Assembly: GCA_903910385.1 (NCBI GenBank)
Contig: CAIVZM010000018.1
Location: forward strand, 62,001-126,000
Source of the DNA: an uncultured Armatimonadota bacterium
GTDB taxonomy: Bacteria; Armatimonadota; Armatimonadia; Armatimonadales; Armatimonadaceae
Direction: 5' to 3'
DNA: 64,000 bases
The notes beneath the pieces were generated by a model. The model had not been told where the DNA came from. It was given only the letters and a program-made list of their open reading frames with translations, and searched no databases. The translations under genes and the position numbers were made by a program. Positions 14,021 to 21,337 of this stretch are shown piece after piece. How positions within the stretch are numbered: position 1 is the first letter of the stretch; each line of letters opens with the position of its first letter.

Positions 14021-14539
14021 TTAAAAGGCGAATCGAAGCGCCTGTAAAACAATCCACAACGCCATTGACACAACCAGAGCATAGATGGCGCGGGCGATGT
14101 ACGCATACTTAGCGGAAAGAATGAGCGCTAGCGTATGAGATTGTCGGCTAATCTGTATCGCCGCCTCTTCATAAGAAAGACCAGCGAACTCCGCAATATA
14201 CGTTTCCGGATCGCGCTTACCGATATCGCCAAAGAAAAATAGAGAGGGAGGCGGTCGGTCAATACGGACATTTAATGAGACTCTGGGGCGAATCGCTCCC
14301 AGAGCGGAGGTCAGGGCGATAGCGATGCAGATGAGGAAAGCGCCAATGAGCGCCACTAGAGCTATATTCCGAAAGGTCAATGGAAACCCCAGCAGGTAAG
14401 TCATGGCAGTATTTGCTGCCGGAGCCCCAAATGGATTACGTTGCAGAGATAACGCCGCAAACAGAAAGCCAATAACGCTAAAGACCACCTGAACCTTTCG
14501 GTCTGCGACCTGCACGGAGTACTCTAATGCAACGAACAA
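14021..14539 (-). CDS. DUF5706/PycTM-like membrane effector
   Basis: The 172-residue frame matches my memory of the PycTM (DUF5706) domain, the membrane effector of Pycsar anti-phage systems: ADRKVQVVFSVIGFLFAALS (first helix), a second helix ending in IRPRV, then LFFFGDIGKRDPETYIAEF, AIQISRQSHTLA, and KYAYIARAIYALVVSMALW (third helix). The pattern is two helices, a cytosolic helical segment and a last helix. No cyclase gene is adjacent. The family-like sequence continues upstream of TTG 14539 (AEARFRLAWQLFVALEY) with no ATG, GTG or TTG. A strong AAGGAG (14606-14611) lies six bases before an in-frame ACG at 14597-14599, so the true start may be ACG, or the gene may have lost its ATG. It lies downstream of the helicase fusion on the same strand. 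Confidence 0.65.
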   Translation of the reverse strand: MFVALEYSVQVADRKVQVVFSVIGFLFAALSLQRNPFGAPAANTAMTYLLGFPLTFRNIALVALIGAFLICIAIALTSALGAIRPRVSLNVRIDRPPPSLFFFGDIGKRDPETYIAEFAGLSYEEAAIQISRQSHTLALILSAKYAYIARAIYALVVSMALWIVLQALRFAF

Positions 14540-14716
14540 TTGCCAGGCAAGACGGAATCGCGCTTCCGCAGAAAGAGGTTCGGATAAGGAATCGCCCGTA
14601 TTCGTCTCCTTTTTCAGAACAGAAGCAGCATTTTTTTCAACAATTATAAGAGTAATGCACCGGCAATCTCTTGAGTCCGCTTCGCAATAATTCCCGCCGG
14701 AAAATAAATCTCCTCT

Positions 14717-17700
14717 TTATTCATCCGGGCAAAGGAAAAAAAAGGGGCAGGAGGGACAATCGGCGGCATCGGCGGGACGGGCATCGAAGACATGAAGACG
14801 AATGCCGGAAATAGCGCGTTCGTATTCCTGCAAATGTCGCTGACGAATTTTCGGCTTGTCCGGAGCAGTATAAGCTTTGCCGTCGCGAAGGTAACGCAGA
14901 CGGACATTCGGTTTCGCCTGGCTTTCCGGGTCACGCTGACGCGCCGCTTCCCAGAGCAGGGAGATACGTCGCTCATCGTTGGGCACCCAGATTTCATCGC
15001 CGACCGGAGGACGTCGAAAGGTCATCATTTCCAGCGTTTTTTCGGTGGGGGTTGCGTCATCTGGACGAACGCTCAGACTGCCGCCATCTAGTTCCACTGT
15101 CAGCAGGGGGGCTTCCGGATTTCGACGACGGGGAGCATAGGAACCGGCGTCACCCGGTTCGGCGACGCTTTCCTTATTCGGGGCGGGAGTGAGAGGAATC
15201 TTCGCCCGCTCGACGATTTGAGAAGCGGCGCGGCGGTAAATCGGAGCGTGAGGATGAGTATCATCCATACCATGCTCATGCCATGCGGCTTCTAACCCGG
15301 CGACAGGATCGGGCAGAGCGAGGGCTTTCTCGACGCTCGCCTTAAACGCCAGATACGGCATGCGCTCGCCCGAGGGCGCATCCAGAATGCGCTCATAGTA
15401 ATACCGTCGCGGACAACGCAGATAAAGCTCGGCGTCTCCGGCGTCGATTGGTTCCGCCGCCCTGTCCGGAGTCATTTGCAGAGAAAAGCCGTGGAGTTCA
15501 GTATTTTCCTGGGGGGCGTTGCCCCCCGTCATTGCGTCTGCCGTTGCGGTCTCCGCGAAGGTGATGACCTCCTCATCGTCGTTTCGCGTCCAACTGAGAT
15601 ACTCGATATCCGGAATGCGGTTCAGCGGCGTGAGCAGGGGCGACGGCATTTCGGCGCGTTGACCGTATTTCATCGCACGGGAAAGAATCAGATGATCGCG
15701 AGCGCGAGTGAGAGCGACGAAAAACAATCGCTTCTCCTCTTCCAGACTACTGTCATCCTCGATTCCAGGCAGAGGCGGAATCAATGCAGGAGCGGGGCGG
15801 GCGGGAAACTTGTTCATCGACAAATTCGCCACAAACACAATCGGAAACTCTAAACCCTTCGCGCTATGGATAGTGAGAATACGGATGGAGTTTTCATTCT
15901 CCGCTTCCCCCTCAGGATCGGCGAAGGAAGCGCCAATTCGCGCCATGCGCCGCAGGTGACGCAAAAAAGCGCGACGTGGCTCGTCGTCATCCTCCAGAAC
16001 AGCGATTGCGCGTTCACGGAAGGCGCGAGCCAGAGCCAGCAGTCGCCCTACCGCCGCATTGTCGCTCAACCGCCGCCCCCAGGCGGGTTCGCCCCAGAGT
16101 AATTCCTGAAAAAAGTCAAGCGCGTCTCCCCGGAACGGCAGTCCACGGGGTAGTTCGGCGAACCGCTGTCGGGCAGGTGAGTTTGGTTCGGCGGCGCGAG
16201 CGAGCGCGGCGACCATATCCCGGACATCGCGAATGCCCAGCAATCCGCCGCCTTCCTCTACGCCCAGCGACACCGGGATGCCCCGTAGCAATAAGGCTCC
16301 GCGCAGATCACGTCCCTGTCGTCGCGTTCGACAGAGTACCGCCATATCTCCGTAAGAGTAACCGGCGTCCGCGAACGTCTTCATGCGCTCCGCGATTCCA
16401 TCCGCCTGCGCTTTATCATCGTCAGCGATCGCCATAGCGACAACCGAACCGCTGTTCTCGCGCACCGGCGTCCACGTTTCCGGATTTCCCGCATCCGCAA
16501 TACCGAAAAGGCGCACCAATCGCGGTTGGGAGCGGTAATTCATTTTCAGGTCCGAGCGACGTCCATTGGGAAAATCCGCCTGAAAGCTATGGACATTCGA
16601 CGGTGAAGCTCCCCGGAAACGATAAATCGCCTGTCGAATATCTCCTACCGCCCAGAGCCCCGTTCCCTCTCCTGCCAGAAGCTGAATGAGTTTAGCGCCA
16701 CTCCGGTTGATATCCTGATACTCATCCACCAGAATATGTCGCCATTGCGCCTGTTCCGCCGCACGGACTTCTTCACTGGCTTCCAGCAGGCGCAGGGGCA
16801 GGCGCACCAGATCACTGTAATCGATAGCGCCTTTTTCCTTCAGGAGATCAGCATAGACAGCATAAACGCGACCGGTCTCGATCAGGCGTTCGTTCCCGGA
16901 GGCTTCCGCACGGGCGGTGAATTCTTCCGGTTCAATGCCTTCCTCTTTTGCCTTACGGATCAGCGTCAGCATGTCAGGCAACGGATAAGCGGGATCGTGC
17001 AGATAACTGAGCGCGGATAAATCCAGAGAGGCTGCCCGACGCTCCAGCAAAGCGATGGCGTCCGCCGCTTCCAGCAAGATGGGATTGGGCGGCAGTCCCA
17101 GCGCTTTGCCCTGACGTCGCAAAAGGTCGAGTCCGTATGCGTGGAAGGTAGCGATCAAGGCGCGACGCGCCGTTTCCGGGTCTATCTCGGCGATACGCTC
17201 CTGCATTTCCGCCGCCGCCTTGCGCGAGAAGGTCAGCGCCAGAATATTTTCCGGCGCGACGCCCAGTTCACGCGTCAGGTACAGTACCCGCGCCGTCAGC
17301 GTTCGCGTCTTCCCAGTCCCTGGTCCCGCGCCCACCAGTAATGGACCGGATGCGGTATAGGCGGCCTCTTCCTGACTGGGGTCTAGGAGAATAGCATCCG
17401 AAGCGGGTTCCGACGGAGTTTCTTTTTCCGGTTCCGCTTCGCAGGAGGAATCTTCTTCGATCAGTCCGGCGCTCAACTGCGCGAAGACGATCCCGATCGG
17501 TATTCCCAATCGGGACGCGAGCGCAGAGGCATCATCCCCCCCGGAAAACAGGCGCTGCGCTTCCGAAGCGGGCAAAAGAAATTCTCGGGCGAAGACGTTC
17601 GCTTCAGTCTCCCGGCGTTGACGGGGACCATAACCGACAGAGCGCATGGCTTCCGGTTCCGCAAAGTCTGGTTCCGAGCAATGGCAGAGTTTACCGCCTT

Positions 17701-18010
17701 CGTGCAGATGGAAATGGGCGAGTTCGTGCGCGATGAACACCCGTCGCTCCGGCGCGGAGGCATCCGAGCGCACCCAGATAGTCCGCATCTCCGGGTCTAA
17801 AACGGCGTGCGCTCCGCTGAGTAGCGGATCCGAAGGCAGGCGTAGTCGGCAACGTAACCCGGCGGATTCCAGTCCGTCGCTGACAAGGACTTCCGCCTGA
17901 ATTTCTTCCTTTGCCGTCCCCTTTATGCTGATGCCATTGCTGTCCGGTTTGCTGAGTTCGCTCCGTAATTTCCGCGCCGCCGCCCGCGATTTGTCCCAGA
18001 TTGTCGCCAT
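14717..18010 (-). CDS. ImmA/IrrE protease - UvrD helicase - Fe-S nuclease-like fusion
   Basis: A 1097-residue three-part protein. Residues 1-180 form an ImmA/IrrE-type zinc peptidase: HELAHFHLH (His 95, Glu 96, His 99) and ETEANVFAREFLLP with the third ligand Glu. Residues 205-800 form an SF1 UvrD/PcrA helicase: Q motif LDPSQEEA, Walker A GAGPGTGKT (227-235), DEYQD (429-433), GDIRQAIYRFRGA, ILTIHSAKGLEFPIVFV, and FVALTRARDHL. Residues 855-1097 look like the RecB/AddB-type nuclease with an iron-sulfur staple: LYLRCPRRYYYE (Cys 866) and ADCPSCPFFFLCPDE (Cys 1085, 1088, 1094). The expected D-x-K active site reads LEMMTFRRPP, so cleavage is probably lost. It has its own promoter just upstream and little or no leader. 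The protease part suggests control of a repressor-like partner; the next gene upstream is a candidate. Confidence 0.9.
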   Translation of the reverse strand: MATIWDKSRAAARKLRSELSKPDSNGISIKGTAKEEIQAEVLVSDGLESAGLRCRLRLPSDPLLSGAHAVLDPEMRTIWVRSDASAPERRVFIAHELAHFHLHEGGKLCHCSEPDFAEPEAMRSVGYGPRQRRETEANVFAREFLLPASEAQRLFSGGDDASALASRLGIPIGIVFAQLSAGLIEEDSSCEAEPEKETPSEPASDAILLDPSQEEAAYTASGPLLVGAGPGTGKTRTLTARVLYLTRELGVAPENILALTFSRKAAAEMQERIAEIDPETARRALIATFHAYGLDLLRRQGKALGLPPNPILLEAADAIALLERRAASLDLSALSYLHDPAYPLPDMLTLIRKAKEEGIEPEEFTARAEASGNERLIETGRVYAVYADLLKEKGAIDYSDLVRLPLRLLEASEEVRAAEQAQWRHILVDEYQDINRSGAKLIQLLAGEGTGLWAVGDIRQAIYRFRGASPSNVHSFQADFPNGRRSDLKMNYRSQPRLVRLFGIADAGNPETWTPVRENSGSVVAMAIADDDKAQADGIAERMKTFADAGYSYGDMAVLCRTRRQGRDLRGALLLRGIPVSLGVEEGGGLLGIRDVRDMVAALARAAEPNSPARQRFAELPRGLPFRGDALDFFQELLWGEPAWGRRLSDNAAVGRLLALARAFRERAIAVLEDDDEPRRAFLRHLRRMARIGASFADPEGEAENENSIRILTIHSAKGLEFPIVFVANLSMNKFPARPAPALIPPLPGIEDDSSLEEEKRLFFVALTRARDHLILSRAMKYGQRAEMPSPLLTPLNRIPDIEYLSWTRNDDEEVITFAETATADAMTGGNAPQENTELHGFSLQMTPDRAAEPIDAGDAELYLRCPRRYYYERILDAPSGERMPYLAFKASVEKALALPDPVAGLEAAWHEHGMDDTHPHAPIYRRAASQIVERAKIPLTPAPNKESVAEPGDAGSYAPRRRNPEAPLLTVELDGGSLSVRPDDATPTEKTLEMMTFRRPPVGDEIWVPNDERRISLLWEAARQRDPESQAKPNVRLRYLRDGKAYTAPDKPKIRQRHLQEYERAISGIRLHVFDARPADAADCPSCPFFFLCPDE

Positions 18011-18023
18011 AAAATGCCCGGTT

Positions 18024-18053
18024 ATTGTATCGCTTTTCCGGTTTTCGCGTCAG
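18024..18053 (-). promoter_or_regulatory. Promoter of the protease-helicase fusion gene
   Basis: On the minus strand CTGACG (18048-18053) and TACAAT (18024-18029) are 18 bases apart. The ATG follows 13 bases after the -10 box, with no Shine-Dalgarno sequence, so the message would be leaderless or nearly so. Confidence 0.55.
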
Positions 18054-18071
18054 TTCCAGTCAGTTATAAAT

Positions 18072-18103
18072 AAACGGCGGACGCTCAGCGTCCGCCGTTT
18101 TTC
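18072..18103 (-). terminator. Terminator after the HTH-like gene
   Basis: A 13-bp GC-rich perfect stem (18072-18084 with 18088-18100, loop TCA) lies just after the stop of the 219-residue gene. It separates the sigma/HTH pair from the helicase gene, which has its own promoter 20 bases on. Confidence 0.8.
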
Positions 18104-18104
18104 G

Positions 18105-18761
18105 TTAGTTCAGCCATTTCTCTCGCTGGCTTGCCATGGCTTCCGGATCGGAGCGCAGGGCGTCTGCGAAAGATTCCTGCGTTCCGACGGTCGGAGTGTC
18201 ATCGGCGCGGAAACTGGCTCCCGCCGCCAGAGTCGGCGGCTGGCGCAGATAAGCGGCGATTTCGTCGGCGGTGCGCCCGACGGCGGATGCCAGAGCGTTT
18301 ATAAAGTCACGCGGAATAGATTCCAGAGCGATAAGTCGTCGATGCAGTTTCACGAACAGCGGTTGAGGAATATCGAGCAGGGCGGCCGCATCATCGGCAT
18401 CCAACCCCTGCGCCTTCGCCGCCGCCAGCAAACTGTTCAAGGGGCGTACAACCACATTCGCCGCAGTTGGAGCGACCGCAGGAGCCATTTGCGGACGCAT
18501 TCGACGCAGAACATCCATGCCAACGGTCGCGATAGCGGCAGTCTGGGCGTTCGATGTTGCGAGCGCATCCGCATCCTTACCGCAGACCCACTGGTCGGCG
18601 GCGAACAACGCGATATCGCTTGCATGGGCAGGGTGACGGCTTATCCAATCGGCGGTATCGGTTGCGCTTCCGCCGGACAGAGCGAACTCTATCAGGACTT
18701 CGTCGCGATCCGCCTCATTGATTATCGTTGTGAACAGGTTATCCATTGCTTTTATTTTCAT
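18105..18761 (-). CDS. Protein with XRE-like helical segment, unknown function
   Basis: A protein of about 218 residues, not recognised by name. Its N-terminal part (INEADRDEVLIEFALSGG) is plain alpha-helical. Around residues 115-170, LAAAKAQGLDADDAAALLDI followed by FVKLHRRLIALESIPRDFIN and ALASAVGRTADEIAAYLRQP reads like the four short helices of an XRE/Cro-type fold. The C-terminus is acidic and unstructured-looking. It starts shortly after the sigma-like gene (ATG 18761; a TTG at 18779 is also in frame) and ends at a strong terminator. By analogy with ImmR/ImmA and DdrO/IrrE pairs, it could be the target of the ImmA/IrrE domain encoded next door, or an anti-sigma factor; both are inference. 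Confidence 0.65.
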   Translation of the reverse strand: MKIKAMDNLFTTIINEADRDEVLIEFALSGGSATDTADWISRHPAHASDIALFAADQWVCGKDADALATSNAQTAAIATVGMDVLRRMRPQMAPAVAPTAANVVVRPLNSLLAAAKAQGLDADDAAALLDIPQPLFVKLHRRLIALESIPRDFINALASAVGRTADEIAAYLRQPPTLAAGASFRADDTPTVGTQESFADALRSDPEAMASQREKWLN

Positions 18762-18788
18762 CGCCCGCTTTCGCGGCAAATCTCATTC

Positions 18789-19637
18789 TCAGTTATCGCC
18801 GCGTTCCCACGCCGTTAATTTTTCTTTCGCCCGCTTCAAATAGTTCCGTATCGAGCGTCCCGTCACCCCCAGCGCTTTTGCTGCCGAAGGTCGCAACGGA
18901 TCTTCGCTTTCCTCCGGCAATCCGGCGATATACACCAGATAGATCGCACGGACTTCGTTTTCATTCAACGATTTCAGAGCGTCCCGACGCAGAGCCAGCG
19001 CTTCTGGCCCCGCATCCGTCCCCGACATCTTTGACAGAATTCGTTCTAATCCGCTTTCCATCTCATTGTCGCTCATTGCCGGCGATTCATCGCCGGGTCG
19101 TACCTCAGCGTCTGCGGTCGCCTGTCGCTTCTCGATCAAATTCCACAAACGCCGATCCAGGCATACCCAGAAACGCACTTCCCAGAATTCGCTCGTCTCA
19201 TCCCGGCGGAACAATGCTTCCCAGAGAGCGGCATACAGATCCTGAACGCAATCTTTTTCGTCTTCCGGCGTCAGTCGCCAGCGCCGCATCGCCCGTTGGA
19301 TATGGAGCGCGATCCGTTTCGATAACGCTTCAGCGATTTCCCACGCCGTTCCGTCCTCACCCCGCACCGTATATTCCCGCAGGAAATAGACCAGCGTCTC
19401 TTCTCGCGCCCGCTGGGAATCACCCCAGGCAGCGGAAGCGAGCAATCGCTCCTTCCGAATTCGGTCGGGCAACGCGCTTAGTTCTCTTACCTGCCGTTCC
19501 ACTTCCGTTTCCCGGACATAAATCGCACCGCCATCGCGCCGTGCGCGGGTCAGCGGTCTTACAGGCCAGTTTCCTCGCATTTGTTGGGCGTTTTCGGAGT
19601 CGTTTTCAGCGTCTCTCATTGGCGGAACTGTCGTCAT
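18789..19637 (-). CDS. Sigma-70-family RNA polymerase sigma factor, divergent
   Basis: A protein of about 282 residues. The centre resembles sigma region 2: ALSKRIALHIQRAMRRWRLT, EDEKDCVQDLYAALWEALF, then EVRFWVCLDRRLWNLIEKR. The C-terminal part resembles region 4: SLNENEVRAIYLVYIAGLPE, SAAKALGVTGRSIRNYLKRA. The extra N-terminal 80 residues are charged and of unknown use. I prefer ATG 19637, because a TATAAT lies across the alternative ATG at 19685, so transcription would begin inside the longer reading. The HTH-like gene follows directly; this looks like a sigma plus partner cassette. Confidence 0.75.
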   Translation of the reverse strand: MTTVPPMRDAENDSENAQQMRGNWPVRPLTRARRDGGAIYVRETEVERQVRELSALPDRIRKERLLASAAWGDSQRAREETLVYFLREYTVRGEDGTAWEIAEALSKRIALHIQRAMRRWRLTPEDEKDCVQDLYAALWEALFRRDETSEFWEVRFWVCLDRRLWNLIEKRQATADAEVRPGDESPAMSDNEMESGLERILSKMSGTDAGPEALALRRDALKSLNENEVRAIYLVYIAGLPEESEDPLRPSAAKALGVTGRSIRNYLKRAKEKLTAWERGDN

Positions 19638-19683
19638 AAATAGAAACCCGGAAAATTGGGGATGAAATAATTTTGAACGAGTC

Positions 19684-19689
19684 ATTATA
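19684..19689 (-). promoter_or_regulatory. Candidate -10 box of the sigma-like gene
   Basis: TATAAT on the minus strand with TG immediately before it. The -35 region is poor. It overlaps the upstream ATG at 19685, favouring the start at 19637. Confidence 0.4.
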
Positions 19690-19897: not shown

Positions 19898-21337
19898 TTG
19901 GACGACTTGATTTTGAATGCCTTGGAAAAGATCGATAGGCGCCCCGCCGCATGGCGAACCGCGTTTATAACGCTATTGACCTGTTTGCTCTACATGGGAA
20001 CCGGTCTGATGACGGGATGCGGCGGTTCCAGTAGCAGTTCCCCAAAGCCCACACCGACCGCGATGCCGACCACAGATATTCCCAACAGCGGCACGGGACG
20101 CGTCACAGCGCAACCGGGGTGGACGCAAAATAACACCGCTTATCAACAGAACCGCAAAAAGTGGACATTCCTCGTCTACATGAATGGCGCGAACAATCTG
20201 GAAGAATACGGATCGCTCAATGTCAATCAAATGGAGCAAGTCGGTTCGACGAATAATGTCAATGTTGTCGTACAGTTCAAGCGTATTAAAGGTTTTGATA
20301 GCTCCAATGGGAACTGGCTGGATAGTCGCCGCTACTATGTCCAGAAAGATGCTGATACGAAAACGATCAATTCCCTGTTGCTTTCCAGCCGTAGCGACTC
20401 GGACATGGGGAAGTGGCAGACGCTCCGCGAATTCGTGGATTGGGGAGTCACCAACTACCCGGCAGACCGCTATTGTCTGGTGATCTGGAACCACGGGGCG
20501 GGCTGGCGCACGGCGAAACTGGGAACCAGCCGGGGAATTTCTTACGATGACGCAACCGGCAATCATATCGACACGATTGAAATGCCCAAAGCAATTGATT
20601 TAGCCGGGCTTCTGGGCAGCGGCAAAAAATGGGACGTTCTCGCCTTCGACGCTTCGCTGATGCAGATGGCGGAAGTCTCCTACGAAATTCGGGACAAAGT
20701 CCAGTTCATCACCGGTTCCGAGGAAAGCCCTCCCGGCGAAGGTTACCCGTACCAGTTGTTCCTGGCGGATCTGGCGAGTAATCCGGATTGGTCGGGTCGC
20801 GATTTCGCCCTCGACATCGTCCAGAAGACAATTGACGGCTACAACCAGAACTATCCCGGACGCGCCCCGGACATCACCCAATCGGCTCTGGACGCTTCCA
20901 AAATCGGCGATATCGCCCCGGCGGTCAATGATCTTGGCAAGGCGTTGTATAACGTCCGTCTTTCGTATTCGGATGCTATTATTGCTGCCCGCAGCGACTC
21001 CGAATCGTATGCGTACCCCTACTACCACGATCTGCTCGATTTCACGCGCCGTCTGACCGAACCTTTCCCCGGCACGACGGGCGCTCCTGTCCCCGATGCG
21101 GCGGTGCAGAACGCGATCATCCGTGTCCGCCAGACTGTCAATGCCGCAGTTATCAAGAACGTTCATGGCAGTGACCATCCCCGCGCCACCGGGTTGTCTA
21201 TTTACCTGCCTTCTCCGGCAGAATTTGACAATATAGACGAAGAACAGGCAAATGGTTGGGGGCAACGCTACAATAAACTGGCATTCTCAAGCGCCGCACC
21301 GGAGTGGATGAACTTCCTGATGAACGGGCCACGCTGA
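19898..21337 (+). CDS. Clostripain-family (C11) lipoprotein with Cys replaced by Ser
   Basis: A 479-residue protein. The N-terminus has a long basic leader, a hydrophobic helix and lipobox TGC (Cys 41), then a Ser/Thr/Pro linker. The C11/clostripain domain begins WTFLVYMNGANNLEEYG. The catalytic His motif VIWNHGAGW is intact (His 199). At the nucleophile block, where the family has D-A-C-L-M, the sequence is FDASLMQMAEVSYEI with Ser 253. The downstream GSEESPPGEGYPY block is intact. It may be a serine-nucleophile variant, a pseudo-enzyme, or a binding protein. The TTG start at 19898 is strongly supported by GAAGGAG seven bases upstream. Confidence 0.88.
   Translation: MDDLILNALEKIDRRPAAWRTAFITLLTCLLYMGTGLMTGCGGSSSSSPKPTPTAMPTTDIPNSGTGRVTAQPGWTQNNTAYQQNRKKWTFLVYMNGANNLEEYGSLNVNQMEQVGSTNNVNVVVQFKRIKGFDSSNGNWLDSRRYYVQKDADTKTINSLLLSSRSDSDMGKWQTLREFVDWGVTNYPADRYCLVIWNHGAGWRTAKLGTSRGISYDDATGNHIDTIEMPKAIDLAGLLGSGKKWDVLAFDASLMQMAEVSYEIRDKVQFITGSEESPPGEGYPYQLFLADLASNPDWSGRDFALDIVQKTIDGYNQNYPGRAPDITQSALDASKIGDIAPAVNDLGKALYNVRLSYSDAIIAARSDSESYAYPYYHDLLDFTRRLTEPFPGTTGAPVPDAAVQNAIIRVRQTVNAAVIKNVHGSDHPRATGLSIYLPSPAEFDNIDEEQANGWGQRYNKLAFSSAAPEWMNFLMNGPR

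Follow-up and report, generated by a model that had tools for sequence, protein, structure and literature searches.

The 64,000-nucleotide stretch analysed here (the window, from an uncultured Armatimonadota bacterium) carries a gene for an M78 protease, a UvrD-type helicase and a degenerate Fe-S nuclease fused in one chain, standing last in a cassette behind an extracytoplasmic function (ECF)-type sigma factor and an XRE-like protein. We consider it reasonably likely that the fusion is the sensor-protease of a three-gene switch, in which engagement of DNA licenses cleavage of the XRE-like protein and the sigma factor then drives the cassette and an effector operon. The fusion would thus probably be a sensor of DNA damage or invading DNA that switches defence genes on. 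Among the support for the controller reading, two independent profiles, for the protease and for the second gene of the cassette, each find one member of the known CapP/CapH pair first. The reading also explains a gene that is generally annotated just as 'UvrD-helicase domain-containing protein'. The parts of the fusion are as follows.

14717..18010, minus strand: fusion of M78 protease, UvrD-type helicase and degenerate Fe-S RecB/AdnA-like nuclease, 1097 amino acids (open reading frame, Pfam, AlphaFold2)
17486..17803, minus strand: M78 (ImmA/IrrE) protease domain, residues 70-175 (Pfam PF06114, Peptidase_M78, 1.3e-12)
17714-17728, minus strand: HELAH zinc site, residues 95-99, within the M78 domain
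17588-17611, minus strand: M78 third-ligand motif ETEANVFA
15611..17386, minus strand: superfamily 1A (SF1A) UvrD/PcrA-type helicase core, residues 209-800 (Pfam and fold match to PcrA)
17306-17329, minus strand: Walker A AGPGTGKT, residues 228-235
16712-16726, minus strand: DEYQD, residues 429-433
15848-15874, minus strand: TIHSAKGLE (motif V region), residues 713-721
14720..15475, minus strand: catalytically degenerate RecB/AdnA-like nuclease tail, residues 846-1097 (Pfam and AdnA alignment)
15413-15415, minus strand: Cys866 of the nuclease tail
14729-14758, minus strand: Cys1085, Cys1088 and Cys1094 of the nuclease tail
15017-15025, minus strand: M-T-F replacing D-x-K in the tail, residues 996-998

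An earlier note on this DNA had described one 1097-residue chain with an intact HELAH site, a full set of helicase motifs and a tail with four cysteines and M-T-F for D-x-K. All of this was recovered: the frame is intact with zero internal stops, the zinc site and the three helicase motifs lie as listed, and both statements on the tail are correct. Pfam matches are UvrD-helicase at residues 209-481 (1e-66) and UvrD_C (7.6e-29); PDDEXK_1, near residues 860-880, is matched at 2.1e-4 in the whole chain, slightly below cut-off, at 9.2e-6 by the isolated tail in the domain search that the note had suggested, and by 27 of 28 homologous tails (best 5e-17). The RecB-like fold with lost catalysis that had been claimed for the tail also stands: a tail profile spans the nuclease domain of mycobacterial AdnA end to end, Fe-S cysteines included (E=9e-9), M-T-F aligns with the AdnA motif D934-L-K936 in the profile alignment and the AdnA alignment, and AddA, RecB and AdnA are among the fold matches. 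The structure of the whole chain, which the note had likewise proposed to predict, was modelled with AlphaFold2 on a 33-sequence alignment (mean predicted local distance difference test score, pLDDT, 82.7; predicted template modelling score, pTM, 0.84). The model matches PcrA (1pjr)/UvrD at E=8e-35; AddA, RecB and AdnA match it along almost the full chain with a large root-mean-square deviation, so that these matches support the domain order and not the exact pose. Searched against solved structures, the M78 subfamily profile finds CapP (7t5t, 2.7e-9) first and IrrE (3dte, 4.7e-8) second. A frame error or split-gene artefact was ruled out, because the same fused frame is carried by about 45 other genomes, with one exception.

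The homologue survey foreseen in the earlier note found the same domain order in Armatimonadota, Chloroflexota, Acidobacteriota, Actinomycetota, Pseudomonadota and Cyanobacteriota. It occurs across the window's family (with Armatimonadaceae YX3bin16 and AVDCRST_MAG63 among the relatives) and order, in other Armatimonadota families, in Chloroflexota, and in one metagenome-assembled genome (MAG) each of Acidobacteriota and Acidimicrobiaceae (Actinomycetota); the Pseudomonadota and Cyanobacteriota fusions are plasmid-borne. A scan of genome contigs with a single N-terminal protein gave no relatives, and a search of a phage collection gave one weak match only. In 33 aligned fusions the zinc ligands His95 and His99, the residues of the helicase core and all four cysteines of the tail do not vary, and the nuclease catalytic Asp is missing from every member aligned. 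Since the Asp is absent throughout while the cysteines are invariant, a predicted loss of nuclease activity and a retained Fe-S site characterise the family in these alignments and do not reflect decay in one genome.

The two genes upstream of the fusion are given below.

18789..19685, minus strand: gene 1, ECF-type sigma-70 factor (TIGR02937 5e-8, below the curated cut-off)
18105..18779, minus strand: gene 2, XRE/lambda-repressor-like protein of 224 amino acids (profile and fold matches)

The order sigma factor, helix-turn-helix (HTH) protein, fusion recurs in Armatimonadota, Chloroflexota, Acidobacteriota, the Acidimicrobiaceae MAG, and plasmids of Pseudomonadota and Cyanobacteriota, with the three genes generally contiguous. 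Among homologues of gene 1, TIGR02937 is matched by 22/24 and sigma region 4 by 23/24. The gene 2 protein is helical at its N-terminus and carries an XRE-type HTH in the middle; its C-terminal motif (A-x-A-S-F/Y-R/K ... F-x-x-A-L ... W) is conserved. The HTH-like nature that had been assigned to this neighbour is moderately supported: among solved structures its profile hits the CapH N-terminal domain (7t5u) first (7.5e-4), and XRE domains, those of DdrO and CapH among them, match its model with a probability of up to 1.0 but at non-significant E values (>0.1). We propose gene 2 as the candidate substrate or inhibitor partner of the fusion. The HExxH glutamate is lost in four members (L040, L042, L043, L044), none of which adjoins gene 2, that is in 0/27 members with a gene-2 neighbour vs 4/16 without (Fisher 0.015, without a correction for kinship); the relatedness of these genomes makes the association no more than suggestive. 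Side features of the cassette are a 12-bp perfect inverted repeat with a T-rich, terminator-like tail at 18011-18104 of the window, between gene 2 and the fusion; TTTTCCGGTTTT-N11-CAGT in the same gap (18034-18060, plus strand, opposite to the genes); sigma and HTH genes that are repeated in tandem in L092:2767-6855; and, there and in L095:7923-10156, an additional HTH-like copy of about 165 amino acids adjoining the fusion.

In many relatives, the cassette is followed by operons for ubiquitin-like conjugation, either Bil or the multiubiquitin (Bub) type. In L114 (Acidobacteriota) it is followed by BilA, BilB, BilC and BilD (PADLOC 1e-53 to 1e-168), L106/L107 (Chloroflexota) and L039 (Armatimonadota) are arranged similarly with Bil-type genes, and Xanthomonas pXCV183 has Bil genes directly downstream (PADLOC 5e-57 to 7e-175). 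Plasmid-borne cassettes precede Bil in Sphingorhabdus, Xanthomonas pXCV183, Variovorax, Aminobacter and Rhizobium, and multiubiquitin-ThiF-DUF6527 operons in Acinetobacter, Leptolyngbya, Agrobacterium, Mesorhizobium, Shinella and Cereibacter. Positions compiled by hand from search results and annotation place a ThiF E1 gene 3.5-5.7 kb from the fusion (or across the record origin) in 36 of the 45 listed plasmid records, on the same strand in 34; two of the remaining nine listed records also have multiubiquitin-ThiF-DUF6527. The gap between fusion and operon measures roughly 70-160 bp. BilD was sought in 369 genomes of one proteobacterial class and found in none. Other genes seen around these loci are DUF6088 and AbiEii/AbiGii nucleotidyltransferase genes (L203, L208, L210, L212, L214; mostly directly upstream of the sigma gene); SbcCD-like nuclease/AAA gene pairs adjoining cassette and operon (downstream in L193, L200 and L205, upstream in L206); and a CBASS-type CD-NTase gene (L106:554-1384, PADLOC 1.3e-74), which is found some 3 kb on the upstream side of the sigma gene and places the cassette of L106 between CBASS and Bil genes.

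An ECF-type promoter motif, TTCCGR-N16-CGAY, lies ahead of the ubiquitin-like operon in most loci and ahead of the sigma gene in some. Scored as T[TA]CCGN-N15-17-CGAY, it is present in 12/16 gaps between fusion and operon (shuffle mean 0.10, max 2 in 500) and 6/16 sigma upstream regions (shuffle mean 0.12, max 2), and in 0/14 coding controls. The pattern had been read from some of the loci scored, and ten further plasmid loci were therefore fetched as a held-out set; seven of these ten gaps contain it (shuffle mean 0.08, max 2 in 1000). L105, outside the derivation set, has the motif at both places, as have L195, L106, L107, L114 and L207. An ungapped 20-bp operator shared by both promoter regions had been sought before the gapped motif was found and was no better than shuffled controls. 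The earlier interpretation is partly supported: its domain order and its dead RecB-like tail stand, and the results favour its ideas that the protease may report on DNA through the helicase and that the HTH-like neighbour is the candidate substrate. It had not reached the sigma factor that is conserved at the head of the cassette, the association with Bil and Bub operons or the shared promoter.

The proposed mechanism would run as follows. In the resting state the XRE-like protein would bind the sigma factor or the promoter and so keep the cassette silent. The helicase would engage abnormal or invading DNA, such as DNA ends or single-stranded DNA (ssDNA), and the Fe-S dead-nuclease tail would serve as a DNA-binding or structural module and not as a cutter. 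This engagement would activate the attached M78 protease, which would cleave the XRE-like protein; the freed ECF-type sigma factor could then transcribe both its cassette and the effector operon beside it, using the TTCCGR-N16-CGAY promoters. In many bacteria the effector operon would encode ubiquitin-like conjugation of the Bil or the multiubiquitin type; for the window's lineage the output may be the cassette and possibly also the PycTM gene next to it. A variant of the fusion was seen in L081:1796-3727, L082:2610-4547, L083, L084 (genus g5, window's family) and L085:4178-6577, where M78 is joined to a degenerate UvrD-like domain (with DNYEQ for the Walker B motif DEYQD and no nuclease tail in at least L081/L082 among L081-L084) and is still preceded by a sigma gene and a relative of gene 2. 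These seem to be switches that have lost the motor; since the tail-less relatives with a degenerate helicase (L081-L084) keep both genes, their sequences suggest that it can be enough to bind DNA without unwinding it.

Several observations weigh against this mechanism or narrow it. Twelve of the scored loci were those in which the motif had originally been noticed, five of the seven motif-positive held-out gaps are from close relatives, and the motif is present in just 1/10 held-out sigma upstream regions. Given its profile and fold scores, the HTH assignment of gene 2 is of moderate strength. About a dozen members have an intact protease and no adjacent gene 2, and L101 (G006, JAUJOK01) is the sole relative with protease and helicase in separate, overlapping frames. 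In the window's own branch the -10 element is altered (CAGT for CGAT), and neither BilD nor a multiubiquitin gene is present in the window's genome (95% complete). With this changed -10 and no ubiquitin-like operon, the window's lineage, a chromosomal branch, gives no sign that its cassette regulates an effector operon. Its own elements are these.

19627..19655, minus strand: promoter-like element TTTTCCGG-N16-ACAGT at the sigma gene start (footprint kept in 4 genera, constant spacing)
14697..14704, minus strand: lone TTTTCCGG, -35-like only, after the fusion stop codon and ahead of the PycTM gene (no recognisable -10)
14021..14539, minus strand: next gene downstream, PycTM (Pycsar-type effector-like) protein of 172 amino acids with two transmembrane segments (PF18967 1.4e-12; PADLOC PycTM 1.3e-19)

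The -35 and the 16-bp spacing are kept in the window's family as TTTTCCGG-N16-(A/T/G)CAGT in four genera, and the flanks are not conserved; part of the CAGT conservation could be coding-derived. Because the element lies inside the longest-frame start of gene 1, the true start is probably further downstream, at about 19635 or 19617. The Pseudomonadota motif, scored on Armatimonadota sigma upstream regions, was mostly not above null, and in the window nothing was above null. The word TTTTCCGG turns up in the window more often than chance predicts (17 times vs 4.6 expected; 0/100 shuffles as high), which makes the lone site before the PycTM gene weak. Searched genome-wide, the window-type motif gave one further site, antisense within a coding gene, which was taken as chance. 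Where relatives have an immune operon downstream, the window offers one PycTM gene only; its association with the cassette is not conserved in relatives, and it is a possible output gene. The window cassette may act chiefly on itself and on unlinked genes. A clostripain-family (C11) lipoprotein-like gene (window 19898-21337, plus strand) is oriented divergently to the sigma gene, and C11 homologues lie near the cassette in 10 compared loci, the window included.

Other explanations were weighed against the same material. That the fusion is itself an anti-phage or anti-plasmid effector, whose helicase loads on foreign DNA and whose protease cleaves a phage or host protein while sigma factor and HTH protein only regulate it, would agree with UvrD-type helicases acting as effectors in Gabija, with well-scoring GajB profiles and with plasmid cassettes lying near defence genes (AbiEii/DUF6088; the CBASS cyclase of L106). 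It is unlikely: no member has an active nuclease, the PADLOC GajB scores reflect generic UvrD similarity, and a controller would account for the recurrent sigma/XRE pairing, for the position before a complete effector operon and for the shared promoter found in the gap. We regard as improbable that the fusion is an AdnA-like DNA-repair machine, with a protease that auto-regulates or clears blocked proteins and with sigma and HTH genes that make it damage-inducible. Its intact helicase motifs, similarity to AdnA and PcrA, and chromosomal, apparently vertically inherited Armatimonadota copies with housekeeping neighbours suit such a role, but the nuclease is dead family-wide, the operon linkage spans phyla, the M78 domain is nearest to the regulatory proteases CapP and IrrE, and the degenerate-helicase relatives (L081-L085) retain the protease with the sigma and HTH genes.

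The linkage itself might be mere defence-island co-localisation on plasmids, with a gap promoter that belongs to an unrelated sigma factor. Many matches are plasmid-borne and related, and in Aquincola (L194) and P. koreensis (L202) no ubiquitin genes are annotated beside the cassette; however, order, orientation and gap length are constant in several phyla, including Chloroflexota and Acidobacteriota MAGs, and one motif stands before both sigma gene and operon in each of the six loci named above, so that this explanation appears very improbable. Returning to the sensor-protease switch, we put forward tentatively that it represents an undescribed class of controller, in which a helicase motor would gate a CapP-like protease, an XRE inhibitor would be destroyed, an ECF sigma factor released and ubiquitin-like operons turned on, a nuclease having become a DNA-reading domain. 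In the searchable open-licence literature no description of the domain order was found; specialist Bil/Bub papers lay outside that search and a prior mention is possible. The cassette bears on how Bil and Bub conjugation systems are switched on. Controllers of known type have been reported for 278/544 Bub operons, 219 with CapW or CapH+CapP and 59 with CapK+CapS (PMC13373217); the cassette is a candidate controller for further Bub operons and for Bil, with a predicted promoter and a predicted substrate. If this holds, a class so far known as simple repressor removal would gain a motor-driven DNA sensor and a sigma-factor output.

Among known systems, the operons that most plasmid-borne cassettes precede are Bil (BilABCD) and multiubiquitin-ThiF-DUF6527, and the cassette lies outside the four-gene Bil system as modelled in PADLOC. 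Gabija GajB, which works with GajA, shares the UvrD-type helicase and is not known to have an M78 domain or a nuclease tail; membership in Gabija or DRT from PADLOC matches was rejected as generic UvrD similarity. AdnA/AdnB, AddA and RecB likewise have a UvrD-type helicase (SF1A motifs) followed by a Fe-S RecB-family nuclease with four cysteines, whereas the fusion is without the catalytic Asp (AdnA D934), has an added N-terminal M78 domain and has no second subunit at its locus. IrrE/PprI, which is reported to sense ssDNA and cleave DdrO in the Deinococcus radiation response (PMC10904395), is also an M78 protease with an XRE-type partner, but is stand-alone, without helicase and without sigma factor. 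Closest is CapH+CapP, a repressor/protease pair that responds to DNA damage and governs CBASS, Bub and other immune operons. ssDNA-activated CapP cleaves CapH upstream of such operons (PMC13373217): here too an M78 protease with intact HELAH is paired with an XRE repressor-like protein, in relatives directly upstream of immune operons. CapP is a stand-alone protein of about 290 amino acids in a two-gene system, whereas here the protease is fused to a UvrD-type helicase and a dead Fe-S nuclease, and the cassette opens with a gene for an ECF-type sigma factor. In its proposed action the cassette resembles CapH/CapP, yet it is not counted as a member, because its protease is not stand-alone and a sigma factor has been added.

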